DNA of 64,000 bases from assembly GCF_013004105.1 (NCBI RefSeq), contig NZ_CP053085.1, positions 2,356,001 through 2,420,000 on the forward strand, read 5' to 3'. The notes below the pieces were generated by a model. It did no database searches. It was not told the DNA's origin and was given only the letters and a program-made list of their open reading frames with translations. Numbering within the stretch: the stretch's first letter is position 1; each line of letters starts with the position of its first letter. Shown one piece after another: positions 2,886-11,347 of this stretch. The stretch is from Gemmatimonas groenlandica (GTDB lineage: Bacteria > Gemmatimonadota > Gemmatimonadetes > Gemmatimonadales > Gemmatimonadaceae). Both the position numbers and the translations under genes were made by a program.

Positions 2886-5258
2886 TTACGCGCCGCCCCG
2901 TACTCCATCCACCGCCCGGGTCTGCCATCCGGTCAGCTGCTTGCCCACCGGCAACTGGCGCACGCGCACGCCCGTCGCGGCGAAGATCGCGTTCGCGATC
3001 GCCCCACCGGCCGGCGGTACGCCCGGCTCGCCGATGCCGCCCGGCAGCCCTTCACTCGTCACCAGGTGCACATCGACCACGTGCGGCGCCGCCCGCATGC
3101 GCGTCACGCCGTAGTCGCGATAGTTCGACTGTACCACTTTGCCGCCGGCGAACGTCACCTCGCTCGTGAGCAGGTTGCTCATCGCCATGATCAGCGCGCC
3201 TTCCATCTGCGCGCGCGCACGATCGGGATTCGCGATAAAGCCGGCATCGACGGCCACCGTGGTCTTCGGCACCAGTACCGTACCGTCGGGTAGCACCTCG
3301 ACGTCCACTACCATCGCCACGTACGACAAAAAGCTGCGATGAATCGCGATACCGCGGCCCTTGCCGCGCGGCAACTTGGCGCCGCGCCATCCGCTTTTTT
3401 CGACGGCCAGCTCCACTACGCGGCGTGCCCGCGCACTGTCGAGGGGGTGATCGACCCACGTCGCACCGTAGTTGCTGGCCGGTGCCACCAAGCCCGCCTT
3501 GGACAGGTCCACTACGCGATCGGCGCCTAGCAAGCCGAGCAGGAAATCCGCCGGGTCTTTTTTCGCCGCGTACGCCAGCTCATCGACGAACGAGCCGATC
3601 GCGAAACCGTGATGGATCGCGTTCACGCTGCGATACCAGCCAATGCGCGTGTGCGCGACGGCCGGACAGATCTCGACGCTCATGTTCGGAATGTCGAACG
3701 GAATATCGCTCGCGCCATTCGTCAATTCATCCGGCTCGGCACCCGGCACGTTCGGCGCAAACGTGGCGCCGATGGCCGGATACGCCGAGCGATGCAACCA
3801 CGCCGTCACCTTCCCGTTCGCGTCGAGACCCGCCTCGAGACGATGCGCCGCCACCGAGTGCAGATACGAATTGCGGAGATCATCCTCGCGCGTCCACTGC
3901 ACGCGCACGGGAGCGCCGATCTCGCGCGACAGAAATGCCGCTTCACAGATGAAATCCGGCTTGGATTTGCGGCCGAATCCTCCACCCAGCAGCGTGACGT
4001 GCACGGCGACGTTCGCGGCATCGACCTTGAGGTACTGCGCCACGGTGTTGCGCGCATCCTGCGGCGACTGCGTGGGCGCCCAGATCTCGACCTTGCCGTT
4101 GGCCACGTGTGCCAAGGCCGCCACTGGCTCCATCTGCGCATGCGACAAGTGCGGCATGTAGTACTCCGCCGTCACGCGCTTCGTCGCCCCGGCCAGCGCC
4201 TTCGGCACGTCACCGACGGCGCGCCCCGCCTTGCCCGGTGCACGGACCGACGAGAGCAACGTCGCCTTATACGCCGTGCTGTCGTACGTCGCGTTGGCTC
4301 CGTTGTCCCACGTGATGCGCAAGGCGTCACGACCGCGGATTGCCGCCCACGTGTTCTTTGCGATCACCGCCACACCGCCCAGCGGGAAGAACGCGCTCGG
4401 CACCGGGGTTTCGGGAATACGCACCACCTTCTCCACGCCCGGCACCTTCAGCGCGAGACTGTCGTCGACACTCACCACCTTGCCCCCCCACACCGGTGGC
4501 CGACTGATCACCGCCACCTTCATTCCCGGCAGGGTGACGTCCGCACCGTACATCGCTGTGCCCGTCGTCATCGGCACCAGATCGACTGACGGCATCCGCT
4601 TGCCTTCCCAGCGTCGCTCACTCGGCGACTTGATACGCACGCGCTCCTTCGCCGGCATCGGGATCGTGCGCGCTGTGGTCACCAGCGACGCGTACGACTT
4701 CGTGCGGCCGCTCGCGGTGTGCACCACGGCGCCGTTGCGGGCTCGCACCTCACCGCTCGCCACGCCCCACTCTTTGGCGGCCGCATCCTCCAGCAACGCG
4801 CGCACAGTGGCGCCCGCATTGCGATACGCGGGAAGAAAATCACGGATACTGGTGGAGCCGTCGGTGTTCTGATTCCCGTACTTCTTGTCGTCGCCGAGCG
4901 CCTGCTCCACGCGACACATGGCCCAGTCGGCCTCCATCTCATCGGCGATGATCATCGGCATCGTCGTGCGGATACCCTGCCCCATCTCCGAGCGATGACA
5001 CATGATCGTGATGCGACCGTCGTCGCCCAGACGCACGTAGGCATGCGGCTCCCACGGTTCCGCCTTCGGCGCGAGCAGTCCGTCCGCCGCCTCGAGGCGA
5101 CGCACGCCCATCGTACTAGCCGCCACGAGCAACCCGCCCATGCCCAGCAGCTTCATGAAGTCGCGACGATGCGTGTCCAACACGCCGCTCGATGATGCGT
5201 CCGCGACCGTCGGTTCGGTCGGCACCGTGATCCACGGCAGTCTCTGCTTCGCGCTCAT
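2886..5258 (-). CDS. Molybdopterin-binding large subunit of an isoquinoline 1-oxidoreductase-like hydroxylase
   Basis: 790-residue subunit of the xanthine dehydrogenase/aldehyde oxidoreductase superfamily, closest in layout to IorB. It binds the molybdenum cofactor and hydroxylates a substrate such as an N-heterocycle or aldehyde with water-derived oxygen, passing electrons to the FeS subunit. A twin-arginine signal ([10 protein letters not shown]) near residue 35 implies folded export by Tat. Cofactor-contacting motifs include [13 protein letters not shown] and, near the C-terminus, [10 protein letters not shown], whose Glu is the catalytic base in this superfamily. The start at 5258 overlaps the upstream stop by ATGA; the longer reading frame up to 5600 is only the shifted frame of the partner gene. 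No third (FAD) subunit is present, as is typical for IorAB-type enzymes that donate electrons to cytochromes. The substrate cannot be read from sequence. Confidence 0.92.
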
Positions 5259-5779
5259 CGTGTCGCCTCCGCCGCCGCCTTGATCGCCGCACGAATGCGG
5301 GGATAGGTCCCGCAGCGGCAGATGTGGCCGTTCATCGCGGTGTCGATATCCGCATCGGTCGGCGAGGCGTTGCGCGAGAGCAGCGTGGCCGCCTGCATGA
5401 TCTGACCGCTCTGGCAGAACCCGCACTGCGGCACGTCGATCTCGCGCCACGCCACTTGCAGCGGATGCGCGCCGGTCGGATGCAGCCCCTCGATGGTGGT
5501 CACCGTCGCATCCGCGAGTGACTGCATGCGTCGCTGACAGGCGCGAACCGGCGCCCCATTCACATGCACCGTGCAGGCACCGCACTGCGAGATGCCGCAC
5601 CCGTATTTGGTACCCGTGAGTGCAAGCTCATCGCGCAGATACCACAACAAGGGCATTGTCGGGTCGCCGTCGAACGTACGACGGGCACCGTTGATAGTGA
5701 CAGAGATAGGGGCGATGCTCACGGCGGCTCCACAGGCGAAGGTCGGCGACACACGCGTACCGACAGATTCTGTCGACAC
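5255..5779 (-). CDS. [2Fe-2S] small subunit of the isoquinoline 1-oxidoreductase-like hydroxylase
   Basis: IorA-type ferredoxin subunit carrying two [2Fe-2S] clusters. The plant-type cluster motif [14 protein letters not shown] is in the N-terminal half and the second cluster motif, [10 protein letters not shown] with ICRCG, is in the C-terminal half. It shuttles electrons from the molybdenum centre of the downstream subunit to an outside acceptor. Its stop overlaps the next start by 4 bp, so the two subunits are translationally coupled. Family members usually begin right at the [10 protein letters not shown] strand; a GTG at 5722 with GGAG in front matches that, so the first 19 residues from the ATG at 5779 may not be translated. 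The divergent lipoprotein gene starts 67 bp away, and this gap should hold both promoters. Confidence 0.92.
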
Positions 5780-6284: not shown

Positions 6285-7625
6285 TCAGTCCTTCACGCCC
6301 ACCGGAACCCCCTGCGCGCGTGCGCGCTCCAGCCGCTCCAGACGCCGCGCCGCTTGCGTCATGGCGTGCTCCACAAAGGGGGCCGGACTTAACCCAAACG
6401 GAACGGCGTGCGCCGGATACGCGGCAAACGCCTCCGTAATCACCGCAATGGCGGGATCCATCAGCTCGTTTATCGTCGCGGCGATCACATCCCATACCGG
6501 AGCGCCGTGCGCTATGCCGAGGCGCGAGAGCAAATACAAGCCGTACGCGATATGGCGAGACTCGTCAAGTTTGAGCAGGCCGGTCATCTGCTGCATGCCC
6601 GGCAGAATACCTCGTGTCGTGAGTACGTCGTGAAACACATGGTACCCCGTTTCGGCCAGCACCCCTTCGACGATCATGTTGTAGGTGGCAGACGCCCGAG
6701 CCTGCGTCATAGGCGACTGATCGTGGCGCAGCGCCTGCATGCCCCGCGGAAGCGCCTCGCTGAAGATCGTGTGATACGCCGGTGTGTGATACCGCGCCAG
6801 ATTCGTATCGAGAGCGCCCACCGCGTGGAGAAACCGATGCATCCCTTCCACGTGCTTCGCTTCTTCCCACACGAATGAGGTGAGATACAGCTGTTCGTCG
6901 AGACGCCCCTCCTGCGACACGACATCGAGTAACGGCAGGATATCGATGACCACCGCCTCTTCACCGCCTTGGAAGAGCGTGGCGAGCCGTAACAGCAAGT
7001 CTCGCTCGTCGGGGGCCAGGGCACCCCAGTGCTCCCGGTCGGTGCTGAAATTGATGTCCGCCGGATTCCAGATCCCATGGCGCTTCGCCTTTTCCCACAA
7101 ACGGAGCGGCACGGAGTGCTCGGCCCACGCGTCAGGATCGAGACTCCGGAACTCCAGCCGACGCGGAACCACAGCCGCCACCGCGACGACGGACGGCACA
7201 GGAAGTATCGCACGTTCCCGCTCCGGTGGACTTATCGTGCGCACCACGTCAACCAGGGCGTTGGCCGCACCCACGTGCGGTAGCAACATCGGAAGCACTC
7301 CCTTGGCCAGTCGCAAATGCCCGCGCATCAGCGCGACCGTCGGAACCTCGTCGCCTCGCAATACTTTCAGCCACGCAGAGAGCGGGCCACTGATGACATA
7401 ACGTGACTGTCGGCGGTCTGCCGCCGTTGCCAAGCGGGCTGCGTGACAACGCCCGTGCGCCAGGTCGAGAAAGACGGCGACCGACGACGCGTCATCACCA
7501 GGTTCGGCGGTGCGTTCGAGGCAAACCGCCCCTTCCCACCGGCGGGCCGCGTCGCGGTATGGCACACTCGCTTCGAGGGCGGCGCCAAGAGCACGTGCCC
7601 ACTCGTCCGTGAAGAGATCGGTCAT
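6285..7625 (-). CDS. SCP2 lipid-binding domain fused to an R2-like ligand-binding oxidase (R2lox)
   Basis: 446-residue fusion. Residues 1-130 look like a bacterial SCP2 sterol/lipid carrier domain (LFTDEWA start, WEGAVCLE, DLAHGRCHAARL, ALMRGHLRL). Residues 155-440 are an R2lox, a ferritin-fold Mn/Fe oxidase that holds a long-chain fatty-acid ligand. All six expected metal ligands are present with family spacing: E223, E255, H258, E320, E355 and H358. The Val-Tyr pair that forms R2lox's characteristic ether crosslink (V71 and Y162 in the mycobacterial protein) aligns with V225 and Y315, five residues before E320. This fits R2lox better than a ribonucleotide reductase R2 subunit. The start overlaps the stop of the VCBS-cyclophilin gene by ATGA. 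No signal peptide is present, so it should be cytoplasmic. The substrate is unknown. Confidence 0.93.
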   Translation of the reverse strand: MTDLFTDEWARALGAALEASVPYRDAARRWEGAVCLERTAEPGDDASSVAVFLDLAHGRCHAARLATAADRRQSRYVISGPLSAWLKVLRGDEVPTVALMRGHLRLAKGVLPMLLPHVGAANALVDVVRTISPPERERAILPVPSVVAVAAVVPRRLEFRSLDPDAWAEHSVPLRLWEKAKRHGIWNPADINFSTDREHWGALAPDERDLLLRLATLFQGGEEAVVIDILPLLDVVSQEGRLDEQLYLTSFVWEEAKHVEGMHRFLHAVGALDTNLARYHTPAYHTIFSEALPRGMQALRHDQSPMTQARASATYNMIVEGVLAETGYHVFHDVLTTRGILPGMQQMTGLLKLDESRHIAYGLYLLSRLGIAHGAPVWDVIAATINELMDPAIAVITEAFAAYPAHAVPFGLSPAPFVEHAMTQAARRLERLERARAQGVPVGVKD

Positions 7626-9739
7626 CGCTGTCGTGCCGGAGGCAATGGCTCAGTCGCCGGCACCATCGAAAACGTCGCTCGCCGGATACGTAGAATCTGC
7701 ACCGGCGGCGTCAGCGCCTGCGCCGTCACCGGTGATCGCTGAATTGCACGGACGATGTCCATGCCGCTCGTGACCACGCCGAACGCAGCGAACCCCTGCC
7801 CGTCGAGATTGCGATGACCGCCAAAATCGAGAGCGGGCTGATCGCCGATGCAGATGAAGAAGTCCGACGTGGCGCTCTCCGGACCGCTGCGCGCCATCGA
7901 CAACGTCCCGTCGCGATGACGCAGGCCCGTATCACGCGTGCGTTCGAGGGGAATCGGCGCGAAGCGCGCGCCGACCCGCGCGGCATTGGGTCCCCCCTGA
8001 ATCACCTCGATTCGCACCGTATCCGACGGCTGGTTCTGCATCGTCACCGCCCGATGAAAGCGCCCGCCGTCGTATGCCAGCGAATCCACGTACCGGAGAA
8101 AGTTCGTGGCGCTGATCGGTGCGCGGGCGCTGTCCACGAACGCCGTGATCGTGCCGCGCGTGGTCTCGATCACGACGGGGACGCGTCCGGACGCCTGAGC
8201 GCCAGCGGCACGCGGTCCCGACCGCGGCGCCGCGACCCGCACGACCAACCCACGCTTGGCGTATGCGGCTGGTGAGACCCTGCGCTGCGTAGTGCGCACG
8301 CGCGATCCGCCCACGAGTGCAGTGACCTCGACATCCACCGGCTTCATCGAGGTGAGGCCGACGTGCACCGGCACGTCACTCTGCGCATCGTAACCGGAGC
8401 CGGCGTCCACCCACCGCGTGGCCAGCAGTTCGCGCGTACCTGCGGCAAACACACGCACTTCCGCACCAGCGAGAGTCGCGCGGCCGTTCGCATCGACCAC
8501 CCGCACCTGCAGTGATCGCCGCGCGACCGCCGTCGGCAGCACGGTACGGAAGACCGGATGCGACGCCTCCGGGCGCGAACCGGCGAGCGCCAGATCGAGC
8601 GCGCCGTCGCCGTCGACATCGGCCCACTGCACACCGTGACTCGCCGTCAGCGCCAGCACGTTGTCCGGCGTGATATCCACATACGCCGTGGTCTTCGCGT
8701 TCGCCGCGCGCACGAACAGATAGTCTCGAAAGCTTTCCGTGGCCGACACCGTGCCGTTCACATACACGTCGAGCAGACCGTCATGATCGACGTCGGCAAA
8801 CGCACACGTGTCGTACCGTCCGTCGATCGCCACGCCCCATGCCGCGCTCACATCGCGAAACGTCCCGTCTGCGGAGCCGAGAAAGAGTCCGTTGGGCCCG
8901 TAGTTGGCGGAGAAGATGTCGGCGACCCCATCGTTGTTCACATCGGCCACGCAGGGTCGCACGGTGCCTTGCGTCGCCACCTTCGCACCACGTCCGCCCC
9001 AGGCGAGTCCGAGTGTCTCAGCCACATCGGTGAACACGCCGCCGTCGTTGCGGAAGAATCCGTTGGCGTCACCATCCTGATTGGCCACGTACAGATCGAG
9101 ATCGCCGTCCTGCTGGTAGTCGAACCACACGGCGCCCACACTCTTCCGCGCATCGGCCAGGCCAACGCTCACCGCGACATCGGTGAAGACGCCGACGCTG
9201 TTGCGGTACAACATGTTCGCACGATCGCGAAACGCGACGAATAGATCGAGATCACCATCGCCATCGACGTCGATGAAGGCCGGCTGGCGCACGGCGCCGG
9301 TCTCCACCGTCAGCCCACTGGCCGCCGTGATATCGGTAAAGTGCGCGCCGTCGTTGCGATACAGGCGCAGTACCGGCCCCGCTCCGGGCGTGAATCCCAG
9401 CAGGAGGTCGGGATCGCCGTCGGCATCGACGTCACTCCATGCGGCCGCCCGCGTGGCCCGCGCATCAGCCACGCCGGCCTCGACGGCGATGTCGCGGAAG
9501 GTGCCACCGCTGTTCAGATAGAGGCGGTTCGGCGTGCCGTTGAAGCCTACGAAGAGGTCGAGATCGCCATCCCGATCGATATCCGCAAAGGCGTTCGCGA
9601 GCGCTCCACCGGCCGCGAACAGCTCCGGCTGGATCGGCACGAAGCGCGGGCGCAGCACTTGAGCGGGCAGACAAGTCGCCCCGCTCACGGCCATCGCCAT
9701 GAGCAGGGCGAGACGCCGTCCCATCGTCGAGACAGTCAT
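7622..9739 (-). CDS. Secreted FG-GAP/VCBS propeller with UnbV-like region fused to a cyclophilin-type peptidyl-prolyl isomerase
   Basis: 705 residues from the ATG at 9739, whose bases overlap the previous stop (ATGA); an ATG at 9724 is an alternative. A signal peptide is followed by at least seven Asp-rich calcium-binding FG-GAP/VCBS repeats (DIDRDGDLDLFVGF, DVDADGDPDLLLGF, DVDGDGDLDLFVAF and others, about 50-385), typical of an extracellular beta-propeller. Residues 405-470 resemble the ASPIC/UnbV domain that follows such repeats in CRTAC1-like proteins. Residues 521-690 are a cyclophilin domain with the active-site FHR (R563), QGGPN, SMAR, DFFIC and FGVVTSGMDIV. It probably folds or binds proteins in the periplasm. 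The fusion is unusual. Its stop overlaps the R2lox start, coupling the two genes although the products lie in different compartments. Confidence 0.9.
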   Translation of the reverse strand: MTVSTMGRRLALLMAMAVSGATCLPAQVLRPRFVPIQPELFAAGGALANAFADIDRDGDLDLFVGFNGTPNRLYLNSGGTFRDIAVEAGVADARATRAAAWSDVDADGDPDLLLGFTPGAGPVLRLYRNDGAHFTDITAASGLTVETGAVRQPAFIDVDGDGDLDLFVAFRDRANMLYRNSVGVFTDVAVSVGLADARKSVGAVWFDYQQDGDLDLYVANQDGDANGFFRNDGGVFTDVAETLGLAWGGRGAKVATQGTVRPCVADVNNDGVADIFSANYGPNGLFLGSADGTFRDVSAAWGVAIDGRYDTCAFADVDHDGLLDVYVNGTVSATESFRDYLFVRAANAKTTAYVDITPDNVLALTASHGVQWADVDGDGALDLALAGSRPEASHPVFRTVLPTAVARRSLQVRVVDANGRATLAGAEVRVFAAGTRELLATRWVDAGSGYDAQSDVPVHVGLTSMKPVDVEVTALVGGSRVRTTQRRVSPAAYAKRGLVVRVAAPRSGPRAAGAQASGRVPVVIETTRGTITAFVDSARAPISATNFLRYVDSLAYDGGRFHRAVTMQNQPSDTVRIEVIQGGPNAARVGARFAPIPLERTRDTGLRHRDGTLSMARSGPESATSDFFICIGDQPALDFGGHRNLDGQGFAAFGVVTSGMDIVRAIQRSPVTAQALTPPVQILRIRRATFSMVPATEPLPPARQR

Positions 9740-10167
9740 TTCGCGGGAGAGAAAGGGGCCAGCGTCATGAACACGCGCTCGGGCGCCTTCTCCAGAATCT
9801 TTCCGTCGGCCTCGCTCGCGTCGCGCACGGCGATCCACGCCGGGTCCGCACTGAACGCCTTCCAGCTGCGGTTGGCGGCCTCCTCGCTCTCGTGCGACAA
9901 TAGGTAGATCAGCGTCGTCTTCGCTTTTGTCGTATCGGTCGGCGTGAAGTAGAGCTCGTTCCGCATGCCGTGTTTCGCGAACAAGGTCAGGGTATGCTCG
10001 GCGAAGCGCTTGTGCAGCGCCAGCAACCGACCGGGAAGCGTGGTGTACGTGCGAAGTTCATAGACGCGTGTGTTCCGTTGCTGACCGACCGCCACACCGG
10101 CCACGAATCCCATCGAACCAACGGCCATCAGCACGACAACACCGATCGCCAGTACTGTTCGCTTCAT
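9736..10167 (-). CDS. NIPSNAP-family protein with N-terminal signal or anchor
   Basis: 143 residues beginning at the ATG at 10167, preceded by GGGAG about 10 bases upstream. An N-terminal hydrophobic stretch (VLAIGVVVLMAVGSMGFVAGVAV) precedes a single NIPSNAP domain, a dimeric alpha-beta-barrel fold: VYELRTYTTLPGRL, then LHKRFAEHTLTLFAKHGM, a strand LIYLLSHES and the conserved FSADPAWIAVRD end. The family is widespread and its chemistry is poorly known. This is the first gene of a three-gene operon (NIPSNAP, VCBS-cyclophilin, SCP2-R2lox) joined by 4-bp stop-start overlaps. The 142 bp gap to the divergent metallo-beta-lactamase-fold gene presumably contains the operon promoter. Longer in-phase reading frames upstream lack coding features. 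Confidence 0.9.
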   Translation of the reverse strand: MKRTVLAIGVVVLMAVGSMGFVAGVAVGQQRNTRVYELRTYTTLPGRLLALHKRFAEHTLTLFAKHGMRNELYFTPTDTTKAKTTLIYLLSHESEEAANRSWKAFSADPAWIAVRDASEADGKILEKAPERVFMTLAPFSPAK

Positions 10168-10309
10168 CACTTTGGCACTCCCTCTCACTGAGCCGCCGCG
10201 CGCACCGAGGCGTGCACCGGGCCGCTCAGACCACGGCAACAATAGGGCGACGACCCCGTCGTGGCCAGACATCGTCCGGGCGGGACGCCATTTACGATTT
10301 GTGATCCGC

Positions 10310-11347
10310 ATGCCTTTGCACACCCTGCGTTCCCTGATTGCCGTCGTCATCCTGACGGCCGGACCGGCCGCTGCCCTCGCGCAGTCGGCATCGCCGTCGG
10401 CATCGCCGTCGGCATCGCCGGCCGGCCGCGGCCTGCGCGTCTGCGATTCCGCGCACACAGCAGCCAATGCCAAGTTCCCGCTACACGCGGCCAGCACGCC
10501 GTGGTACCACGTGCGTGCGGTCGAACCGTTCGTCTTCGCGATTATCGAGCCGTACCAGTTCGAGGAAGTGATCTCGTGGCTCATCGTGGGCTCTGAACGC
10601 GCGCTCCTGTTCGACAGTGGACTCGGCATGCTGCCGATCAAGCCGGTGGTGATGAAGCTGACGTCGCTGCCGGTCACGGTCATCAACTCGCACACGCATT
10701 TCGACCACGTGGGCGGAAATGCCGACTTCGCCGATGTGCGCGCGATGTCCACGCCATTCACCACAGCGCGCATGGCCGGCTATGCGCATGCCGGCGTGGC
10801 CAGTGAAGTCAGTGCCACCGCGCTCTGCGGCAACCGCCCTCCGGGCCTGGACACGACCGCGTTTCGCTCTCGGCCGTGGAGTGCCGCCGCACGCATCGGC
10901 GACGGCACACGCTTCGAACTCGGTGGGCGCGTGCTGGAGGTGCTCGCGACGCCAGGACACACGCCCGATGCCATCTCGCTGCTCGATCGGGCCAACGGCT
11001 TGCTCTGGACCGGCGACAGCTTCTACGCCGGGCCGATCTGGCTCTTCATGCCCGAAACGGACCTCGCGGCCTATCAGCGTTCGATCGACCAGCTGGCGGC
11101 GCTCGTCCCGTCGCTGCGACGCGTGCTACCGGCGCACAACGTGATCTCGGTCGCGCCGTCGGTACTCGCGCGCGTCCCCAAGGCCATCCGCGACGTACGC
11201 ACCGGACGATTCCGCGGCACCGCCCCCAAACCAGGCCAGCGTCTCGTGCCGTTCAAGGGATTCTCGATTCTCGTGTCCGACAAGGCCGTACCGACAAAAC
11301 GGACGCCGCGCTCTTCTGGCGCACCCGCCCCCCAGCGCGTACCCTAG
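10310..11347 (+). CDS. Secreted metallo-beta-lactamase-fold hydrolase
   Basis: 345 residues. The signal peptide (IAVVILTAGPAAALAQ) is followed by a short repeat SASPSASPSASP. That repeat is encoded by three perfect copies of a 12-bp unit at 10384-10419 and forms a flexible linker. The metallo-beta-lactamase fold is marked by the zinc motif NSHTHFDHVGGN, a later ATPGHTPDAISLL (third His), LWTGDSFYAGPI (bridging Asp) and a final PAHN. This gives a complete dinuclear zinc site and suggests an active periplasmic hydrolase, perhaps a lactonase or beta-lactamase-like enzyme; the substrate is not evident. A GTG at 10301 would add three residues. The downstream CBS gene follows after 33 bp in the same direction. 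Confidence 0.85.
   Translation: MPLHTLRSLIAVVILTAGPAAALAQSASPSASPSASPAGRGLRVCDSAHTAANAKFPLHAASTPWYHVRAVEPFVFAIIEPYQFEEVISWLIVGSERALLFDSGLGMLPIKPVVMKLTSLPVTVINSHTHFDHVGGNADFADVRAMSTPFTTARMAGYAHAGVASEVSATALCGNRPPGLDTTAFRSRPWSAAARIGDGTRFELGGRVLEVLATPGHTPDAISLLDRANGLLWTGDSFYAGPIWLFMPETDLAAYQRSIDQLAALVPSLRRVLPAHNVISVAPSVLARVPKAIRDVRTGRFRGTAPKPGQRLVPFKGFSILVSDKAVPTKRTPRSSGAPAPQRVP

Follow-up and report, generated by a model that had tools for sequence, protein, structure and literature searches.

The locus and its reading frame

The window, a 64,000-nucleotide stretch of the Gemmatimonas groenlandica genome, contains a gene in which an N-terminal SCP2 domain and a C-terminal R2-like ligand-binding oxidase (R2lox) are encoded as one unbroken ORF of 446 amino acids on the minus strand (Table 1). 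An earlier sequence-only reading had given the correct coordinates without a strand, which is now added; a plus-strand reading of the same interval was ruled out, as it has stops in frame. That reading had also named an assembly with two separate genes as an outcome that would undo the fusion. An assembly error was excluded by homologous single ORFs in separate Gemmatimonadota genomes (79, 62, 55, 54, 51 and 44% identity), together with the pattern of codon-position differences. Compared with a relative that is ~78% identical (L002), the ratio of third- to second-position differences is 8.9 in the SCP2 domain and 4.7 in the R2lox domain, while the linker is nearly unconstrained. These ratios indicate purifying selection on both domains.

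Upstream on the minus strand, a 738-aa ORF (window positions 7622-9838) encodes a protein with FG-GAP repeats and a prolyl isomerase domain of the cyclophilin type. The end of this ORF and the start of the fusion overlap by 4 bp (ATGA), which suggests cotranscription, and this arrangement was not seen in the relatives. Downstream, also on the minus strand (2886-5779), are genes for a molybdenum hydroxylase of the xanthine dehydrogenase/aldehyde oxidase type, comprising a 2Fe-2S subunit (5255-5779, recognized by eye) and a molybdopterin-binding large subunit; these were not seen beside other fusions. Both neighbors were kept out of the functional argument.

Table 1 Features of the fusion gene in the window.
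Feature	Position	Strand	Evidence or remark
SCP2-R2lox fusion gene, 446 aa	6285..7625	(-)	ATG start at 7625, TGA stop at 6285-6287
SCP2 domain, residues 1-133	7227..7625	(-)	phmmer to 1wfr/2cx7; Foldseek 2cx7
Cys60 of SCP2 domain	7446..7448	(-)	kept in 94/95 SCP2 domains examined (fused, linked or alone)
Linker, residues 134-164	7134..7226	(-)	low model confidence, poorly conserved
R2lox ferritin-like domain, residues 165-438	6312..7133	(-)	NF006202; 3ee4
Metal ligand E222 (6960-6962) and crosslink valine V225 (6951-6953)	6951..6962	(-)	alignment to GkR2loxI
Metal ligands E255 (6861-6863) and H258 (6852-6854)	6852..6863	(-)	alignment to GkR2loxI
Crosslink tyrosine Y315 (6681-6683), ligand E320 (6666-6668), cavity tyrosine Y328 (6642-6644)	6642..6683	(-)	
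Metal ligands E355 (6561-6563) and H358 (6552-6554)	6552..6563	(-)	alignment to GkR2loxI

The oxidase domain and its active site

Structures of R2lox have been available since 2009 (3ee4). By sequence and predicted fold, the C-terminal domain of the window protein is a bona fide R2lox, with a Mn/Fe cofactor predicted, as had been proposed. The NCBIfam model NF006202 ('R2-like ligand-binding oxidase') matches residues ~170-440 with E 7e-104 and 347 bits, above its cutoff of 315, and R2lox from M. tuberculosis (3ee4) matches by sequence with E 4e-59. An AlphaFold model computed with 45 fused sequences as input has a mean pLDDT of 90.8, a disordered linker around residues 133-160 and a pTM of 0.81, a value that would fit a defined arrangement of the two domains rather than demonstrate one. 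Foldseek finds PDB counterparts for both parts of the model (R2lox structures and 2cx7), and VIA-align gives Z 33-38 to R2lox entries, with Z 37.7 and an rmsd of 1.6 over 286 residues for 3ee4. Identity as the R2 subunit of a class I ribonucleotide reductase was rejected, as the best NrdB/NrdF model reached 31 bits against a cutoff of 237 and all R2lox models scored far higher.

For the active site, we aligned the protein to GkR2loxI, whose key residues are named in a 2024 report as E69, V72, E102, H105, Y162, E167, E202 and H205 (PMC10867098). These correspond to E222, V225, E255, H258, Y315, E320, E355 and H358 of the fusion, and the cavity residues Y175, G68 and A171 correspond to Y328, G221 and A324. 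All six metal ligands and the Val-Tyr pair listed in the sequence-only reading are thus present, but it had the first ligand as E223; the correct residue is E222, since E69 and V72 of GkR2loxI are three residues apart, like E222 and V225. The eight residues are invariant in 45/45 aligned fusions, and the active site does not vary among the 73 R2 domains that are fused or linked. Over a broader set of 143 R2 domains, the six ligands, the crosslink tyrosine and the Y175 equivalent never vary, and the crosslink valine is kept in 141. A Val-Tyr crosslink is predicted for the window protein from its residue pair. The solved structures 3ee4 and GkR2loxI/4hr0 share with the fusion the fold (Z 36–38), the six ligands, the Val-Tyr pair and the cavity residues. 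They differ in being standalone chains of ~310-330 residues, whereas the window protein carries ~150 residues of SCP2 domain and linker ahead of the oxidase.

Some R2lox proteins outside the fusions deviate from this pattern. In L144 and L145 from Gemmatimonadota, the crosslink valine is replaced by methionine and a nearby glycine by alanine, with all metal ligands kept; L016, L018 and L019 belong to the same lineage as judged by the motif FQAAEESMTRD. From its sequence, this lineage is expected not to form the Val-Tyr crosslink. There are also divergent R2lox clades with ~30-35% identity to the window protein, in Gemmatimonadaceae (L020, L022, L023, L025-L028) and in Acidobacteriota (L162-L173). 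In the Gemmatimonadaceae clade, every ligand and the crosslink pair are retained, the scanned members score under the curated cutoffs for R2lox, and SCP2 lies upstream in most cases.

The SCP2 domain

The proposed N-terminal SCP2 domain was borne out by the search of the first 130 residues that had been suggested. In phmmer, residues 3-131 match TT1886 of Thermus thermophilus (E 1.5e-21 for 1wfr and 1.7e-21 for 2cx7), and Foldseek matches the predicted model to 2cx7 with E 9e-9, a TM score of 0.90 normalized to the target and an rmsd of 1.9. The fold evidence for this domain comes from Foldseek; the VIA-align listing was filled by R2-fold chains alone. The Pfam model PF02036 gives E 0.0011 on the window protein, just under the cutoff, and scores above the cutoff in all three fused homologs scanned (L005, L008 and L009). 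TT1886 belongs to the same SCP2 subfamily, being ~40% identical to the fusion over the whole domain and sharing a G-x-C motif, but in the solved entries it stands by itself, as a protein of 130-143 residues. No ligand report or established function for TT1886 was found in the open-access literature searched.

The core residues of the SCP2 domain show an identical pattern whether the domain is fused to R2lox, linked to it or alone, which argues for retained SCP2 function, and we infer that the domain of the fusion binds a lipid. Another conceivable role is regulatory, with Cys60 sensing redox state or carrying an acyl adduct and so gating R2lox. The near-invariance of Cys60 across the subfamily (Table 1) would suit such a role. 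Yet this cysteine, which sits in the G-x-C motif, is just as well conserved in SCP2 domains without R2lox and in TT1886, so it probably serves SCP2 itself, and we regard gating as very unlikely.

Distribution of the pairing

A scan of GTDB representative genomes with the fused protein as query returned 490 R2lox relatives, of which the best 80 were taken. As the query was fused, these 80 favor fused R2lox, and the fused share was taken from phylum samples instead. The best 80 of 490 and the phylum loci together yielded 46 distinct single-ORF SCP2-R2lox loci, the window included, so that the survey proposed in the sequence-only reading brought 45 further fusions. By record title, these come from Gemmatimonadota, Acidobacteriota, Chloroflexota, Calditrichota, Balneolota, Rhodothermota, Bacteroidota, Verrucomicrobiota, Myxococcota (in records titled Deltaproteobacteria) and KSB1, and nearly all are from metagenome-assembled genomes. 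In six genomes (L040, L044, L087, L095, L096 and L098), a separate SCP2 gene lies directly upstream of R2lox on the same strand, at -8 to +45 bp, and separate upstream SCP2 genes are also found beside R2lox in several Gemmatimonadota. SCP2 comes ahead of R2lox in every fused or adjacent pair.

The frequency of linkage varied by phylum. Among 395 Gemmatimonadota genomes, nine encode full-length fusions (the window's included), and by hand count SCP2 is linked in 19 of the 30 genomes with R2lox: nine fused, six adjacent and four within 13 kb on the same strand. This SCP2 is present in 29/30 Gemmatimonadota genomes with R2lox versus 69/365 without it (a hand count over related, hence not independent, genomes). 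SCP2 is linked in 6/7 Bacteroidota genomes with R2lox (five fused, one adjacent), in 3/3 cases of close R2lox in Acidobacteriota (one fused, two adjacent) and in 6/25 Deinococcota genomes with R2lox. The divergent R2lox of Acidobacteriota, about a dozen, have no SCP2 nearby (none within 1.5 kb for L162-L173). Dozens of Chloroflexota genomes encode R2lox, nearly always standing alone, and one has a fusion. In plasmid records, only unfused R2lox was found.

The association of SCP2 with R2lox across phyla is well supported by these counts. It is not obligatory in either direction: R2lox in general needs no SCP2, as no SCP2 of this type was detectable in 15 of the 29 standalone-R2lox genomes sampled, and this SCP2 is not dedicated to R2lox, as it occurs alone in 69 of the 99 Gemmatimonadota genomes with any match. 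The suggestion that the fusion offers a substrate hypothesis for the R2lox family thus gains from the wide recurrence of the pairing but does not extend to the whole family, given those 15 genomes.

A chance fusion or assembly artefact, with no functional meaning, can practically be dismissed. We found no point in its favor, and it is contradicted by the recurrence of the pairing in many phyla and several arrangements, by the selection apparent in both domains and by the 79-44% identical fusions in separate genomes. That the fusion has functional meaning is well supported, because SCP2 and R2lox recur as a fusion, an adjacent pair or an operon and no other gene is linked so widely. A search of open-access literature turned up no paper that mentions both R2lox and SCP2. 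Both domains are of known kinds, and their combination appears to be an undescribed, widespread architecture of a known enzyme family.

History of the linkage

A tree built from 99 R2 domains does not sort them by linkage: fused, adjacent and lone ones are intermixed. Eight changes are needed to account for the fused label, well-supported branches forcing two of them, and one fused protein, L054, is placed among adjacent pairs, mostly from the same phylum. Linkage state has therefore changed more than once, in directions on which the tree is silent. Gemmatimonadota also show one and the same SCP2 locus in two states, with R2lox and without it. Both genes are found in L140, but only SCP2 in L118 and L120, which share its flanking genes; likewise, L132, L134 and L135 carry the pair, and L125 and L126 carry SCP2 alone. 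R2lox is thus the variable partner, present or absent next to an SCP2 gene that stays in place. Distances between SCP2 domains correlate with those between R2 domains (Mantel r 0.64, reached by 0/2000 permutations), which would fit co-inheritance of linked pairs and would fit shared genome ancestry equally well.

Gene neighborhoods

We also considered the neighbors of the fusions as a clue to the substrate. SCP2 is the only gene linked to R2lox across phyla, no other neighbor being common across them, and even near relatives with a fusion in Gemmatimonadota differ in the order of the surrounding genes. The clearest context comes from Deinococcota, where four genomes of 2.3-2.4 Mb (L239-L242) share an operon in the order SCP2, zinc alcohol dehydrogenase (ADH), R2lox and aldehyde dehydrogenase (ALDH), with families confirmed using Pfam and NCBIfam. 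In the operons with an intact R2lox frame, the genes are 2-6 bp apart. A gene for a long-chain acyl-CoA ligase lies beside the operon in divergent orientation and is in view in 3/4 genomes. Deinococcales L103 and the related L243 have SCP2, ADH and R2lox in the same order (with one extra gene in L243). Their ADH is 52-53% identical to that of the operon, and L103 has an ALDH ~4 kb downstream that is 58% identical to the operon's. Judged from the gene families, this set could take an alkyl chain through the alcohol, aldehyde and acid to acyl-CoA. As side observations, the R2lox frame of L242 is broken near its 3' part (1563-2410 in R2lox-forward orientation), which may reflect a frameshift, a pseudogene or a sequencing error, and the genomes of L239-L242 also have a second, unlinked SCP2 of the same subfamily.

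A similar cluster has been described for an independent R2lox lineage, GkR2loxI. There, R2lox is encoded with an ADH, an ALDH and a long-chain acyl-CoA ligase (GK2769-GK2782); unlike in the Deinococcota operon, no SCP2 is mentioned among its genes in the available text, and the P21/P16 membrane proteins are proposed as transporters (PMC10867098). Beside the fusions, searches for ADH, ALDH and acyl-CoA ligase gave only scattered, distant matches, with no ADH or ALDH beside the Gemmatimonadota fusions. The operon clue therefore comes from Deinococcota alone, and the substrate of the window protein cannot be read from its own context.

The order of the Deinococcota operon, where ADH directly follows SCP2 and R2lox comes third, would agree with a role for SCP2 after the reaction, in which it takes up, stores or shields the oxidized product and passes it to enzymes such as ADH. 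Against this, SCP2 precedes R2lox in every fused or adjacent pair and needs no ADH nearby. As gene order does not decide the direction of flow, this disfavors the product-side role weakly; we consider it improbable overall.

In eight Gemmatimonadaceae loci (L127-L129, L131, L133, L137-L139), a membrane protein of the LPG_synthase_TM family (PF03706) is encoded directly upstream of SCP2, with or without R2lox. A neighbor of the lysylphosphatidylglycerol-synthase type also points to lipids. Separately, at L136 SCP2 and a divergent R2lox are 13 kb apart, and the intervening genes (6384-11026 in SCP2-forward orientation) resemble by eye an HMG-CoA reductase, a BtaA-type (betaine lipid) transferase and an AMP-dependent ligase.

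The membrane-protein neighbor would favor the possibility that SCP2 is a docking module that places R2lox on a membrane or metabolon, with the substrate entering R2lox from the membrane and no hand-off from an SCP2 pocket. So would a parallel with UbiJ of the E. coli ubiquinone metabolon, an SCP2 protein that serves the lipid hydroxylases of the Ubi metabolon and is proposed to contact the membrane through its SCP2 domain (PMC9499169). UbiJ matches the role proposed for the fusion in that an SCP2 domain serves lipid-modifying hydroxylases; it acts in trans in a multiprotein complex, whereas the SCP2 of the window protein is fused to a Mn/Fe oxidase. Docking is countered by the solubility of R2lox itself, which co-purifies with a long-chain fatty acid (PMC4118035), and by the unchanged SCP2 core, which speaks for retained SCP2 function. 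Docking in place of hand-off is in our view unlikely, though the docking and carrier roles are compatible with each other.

Proposed function

We lean, with modest confidence, towards a carrier-tethered hydroxylase acting on a long-chain hydrophobic substrate as the function of the window protein. The SCP2 domain would take up a long-chain substrate that comes from the membrane or is insoluble for another reason (an alkane, a fatty acyl or a polyisoprenoid chain) and, on a flexible tether of ~30-40 residues, would bring it to the cavity of the oxidase. At the Mn/Fe site, which would include the Tyr-Val crosslink and a second cavity tyrosine, O2 would be activated and the substrate would undergo a two-electron oxidation, most likely a hydroxylation. 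In Deinococcota, the product would pass to the alcohol dehydrogenase, the aldehyde dehydrogenase and then the long-chain acyl-CoA ligase. A hand-off of lipid from SCP2 to the R2lox site, as the sequence-only reading had suggested, is a plausible reading of the fusion, and hydroxylation is the presumed reaction; the chemistry of the Deinococcota operon may, by analogy, apply to the Gemmatimonadota fusion. UbiJ offers a precedent for this carrier role, as an SCP2 protein that works for lipid hydroxylases (PMC9499169).

Published work on the substrate is in keeping with that reading's statement that none is agreed, with one exception to be noted. The fatty acid in the R2lox cavity is regarded as a substitute for the true substrate (PMC4118035). 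For GkR2loxI, degradation of C10-C22 alkanes in crude lysate was reported in 2024 and was only slightly weakened by mutating two metal ligands (PMC10867098); because this effect is modest, the alkane claim is weak by itself.

More broadly, and only tentatively, R2lox could be the oxygenase of an SCP2-fed oxidation pathway, in which SCP2 extracts a long-chain substrate, R2lox hydroxylates it and, in Deinococcota, ADH, ALDH and ligase convert the product to acyl-CoA, the carrier and oxidase having been fused in many lineages. The architecture is of interest because it makes the open question of the R2lox substrate testable: the ligand may stay with the fused protein during purification, and the isolated SCP2 domain could serve as bait for it. 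The SCP2 partnership and the ADH/ALDH/ligase operon would narrow the substrate class of R2lox to long-chain hydrophobic compounds. If the proposal is true, the window protein is a Mn/Fe oxygenase with a built-in lipid-transfer domain, and it would add a soluble oxygenase that brings its own substrate carrier to the known bacterial routes of hydrocarbon and lipid oxidation.
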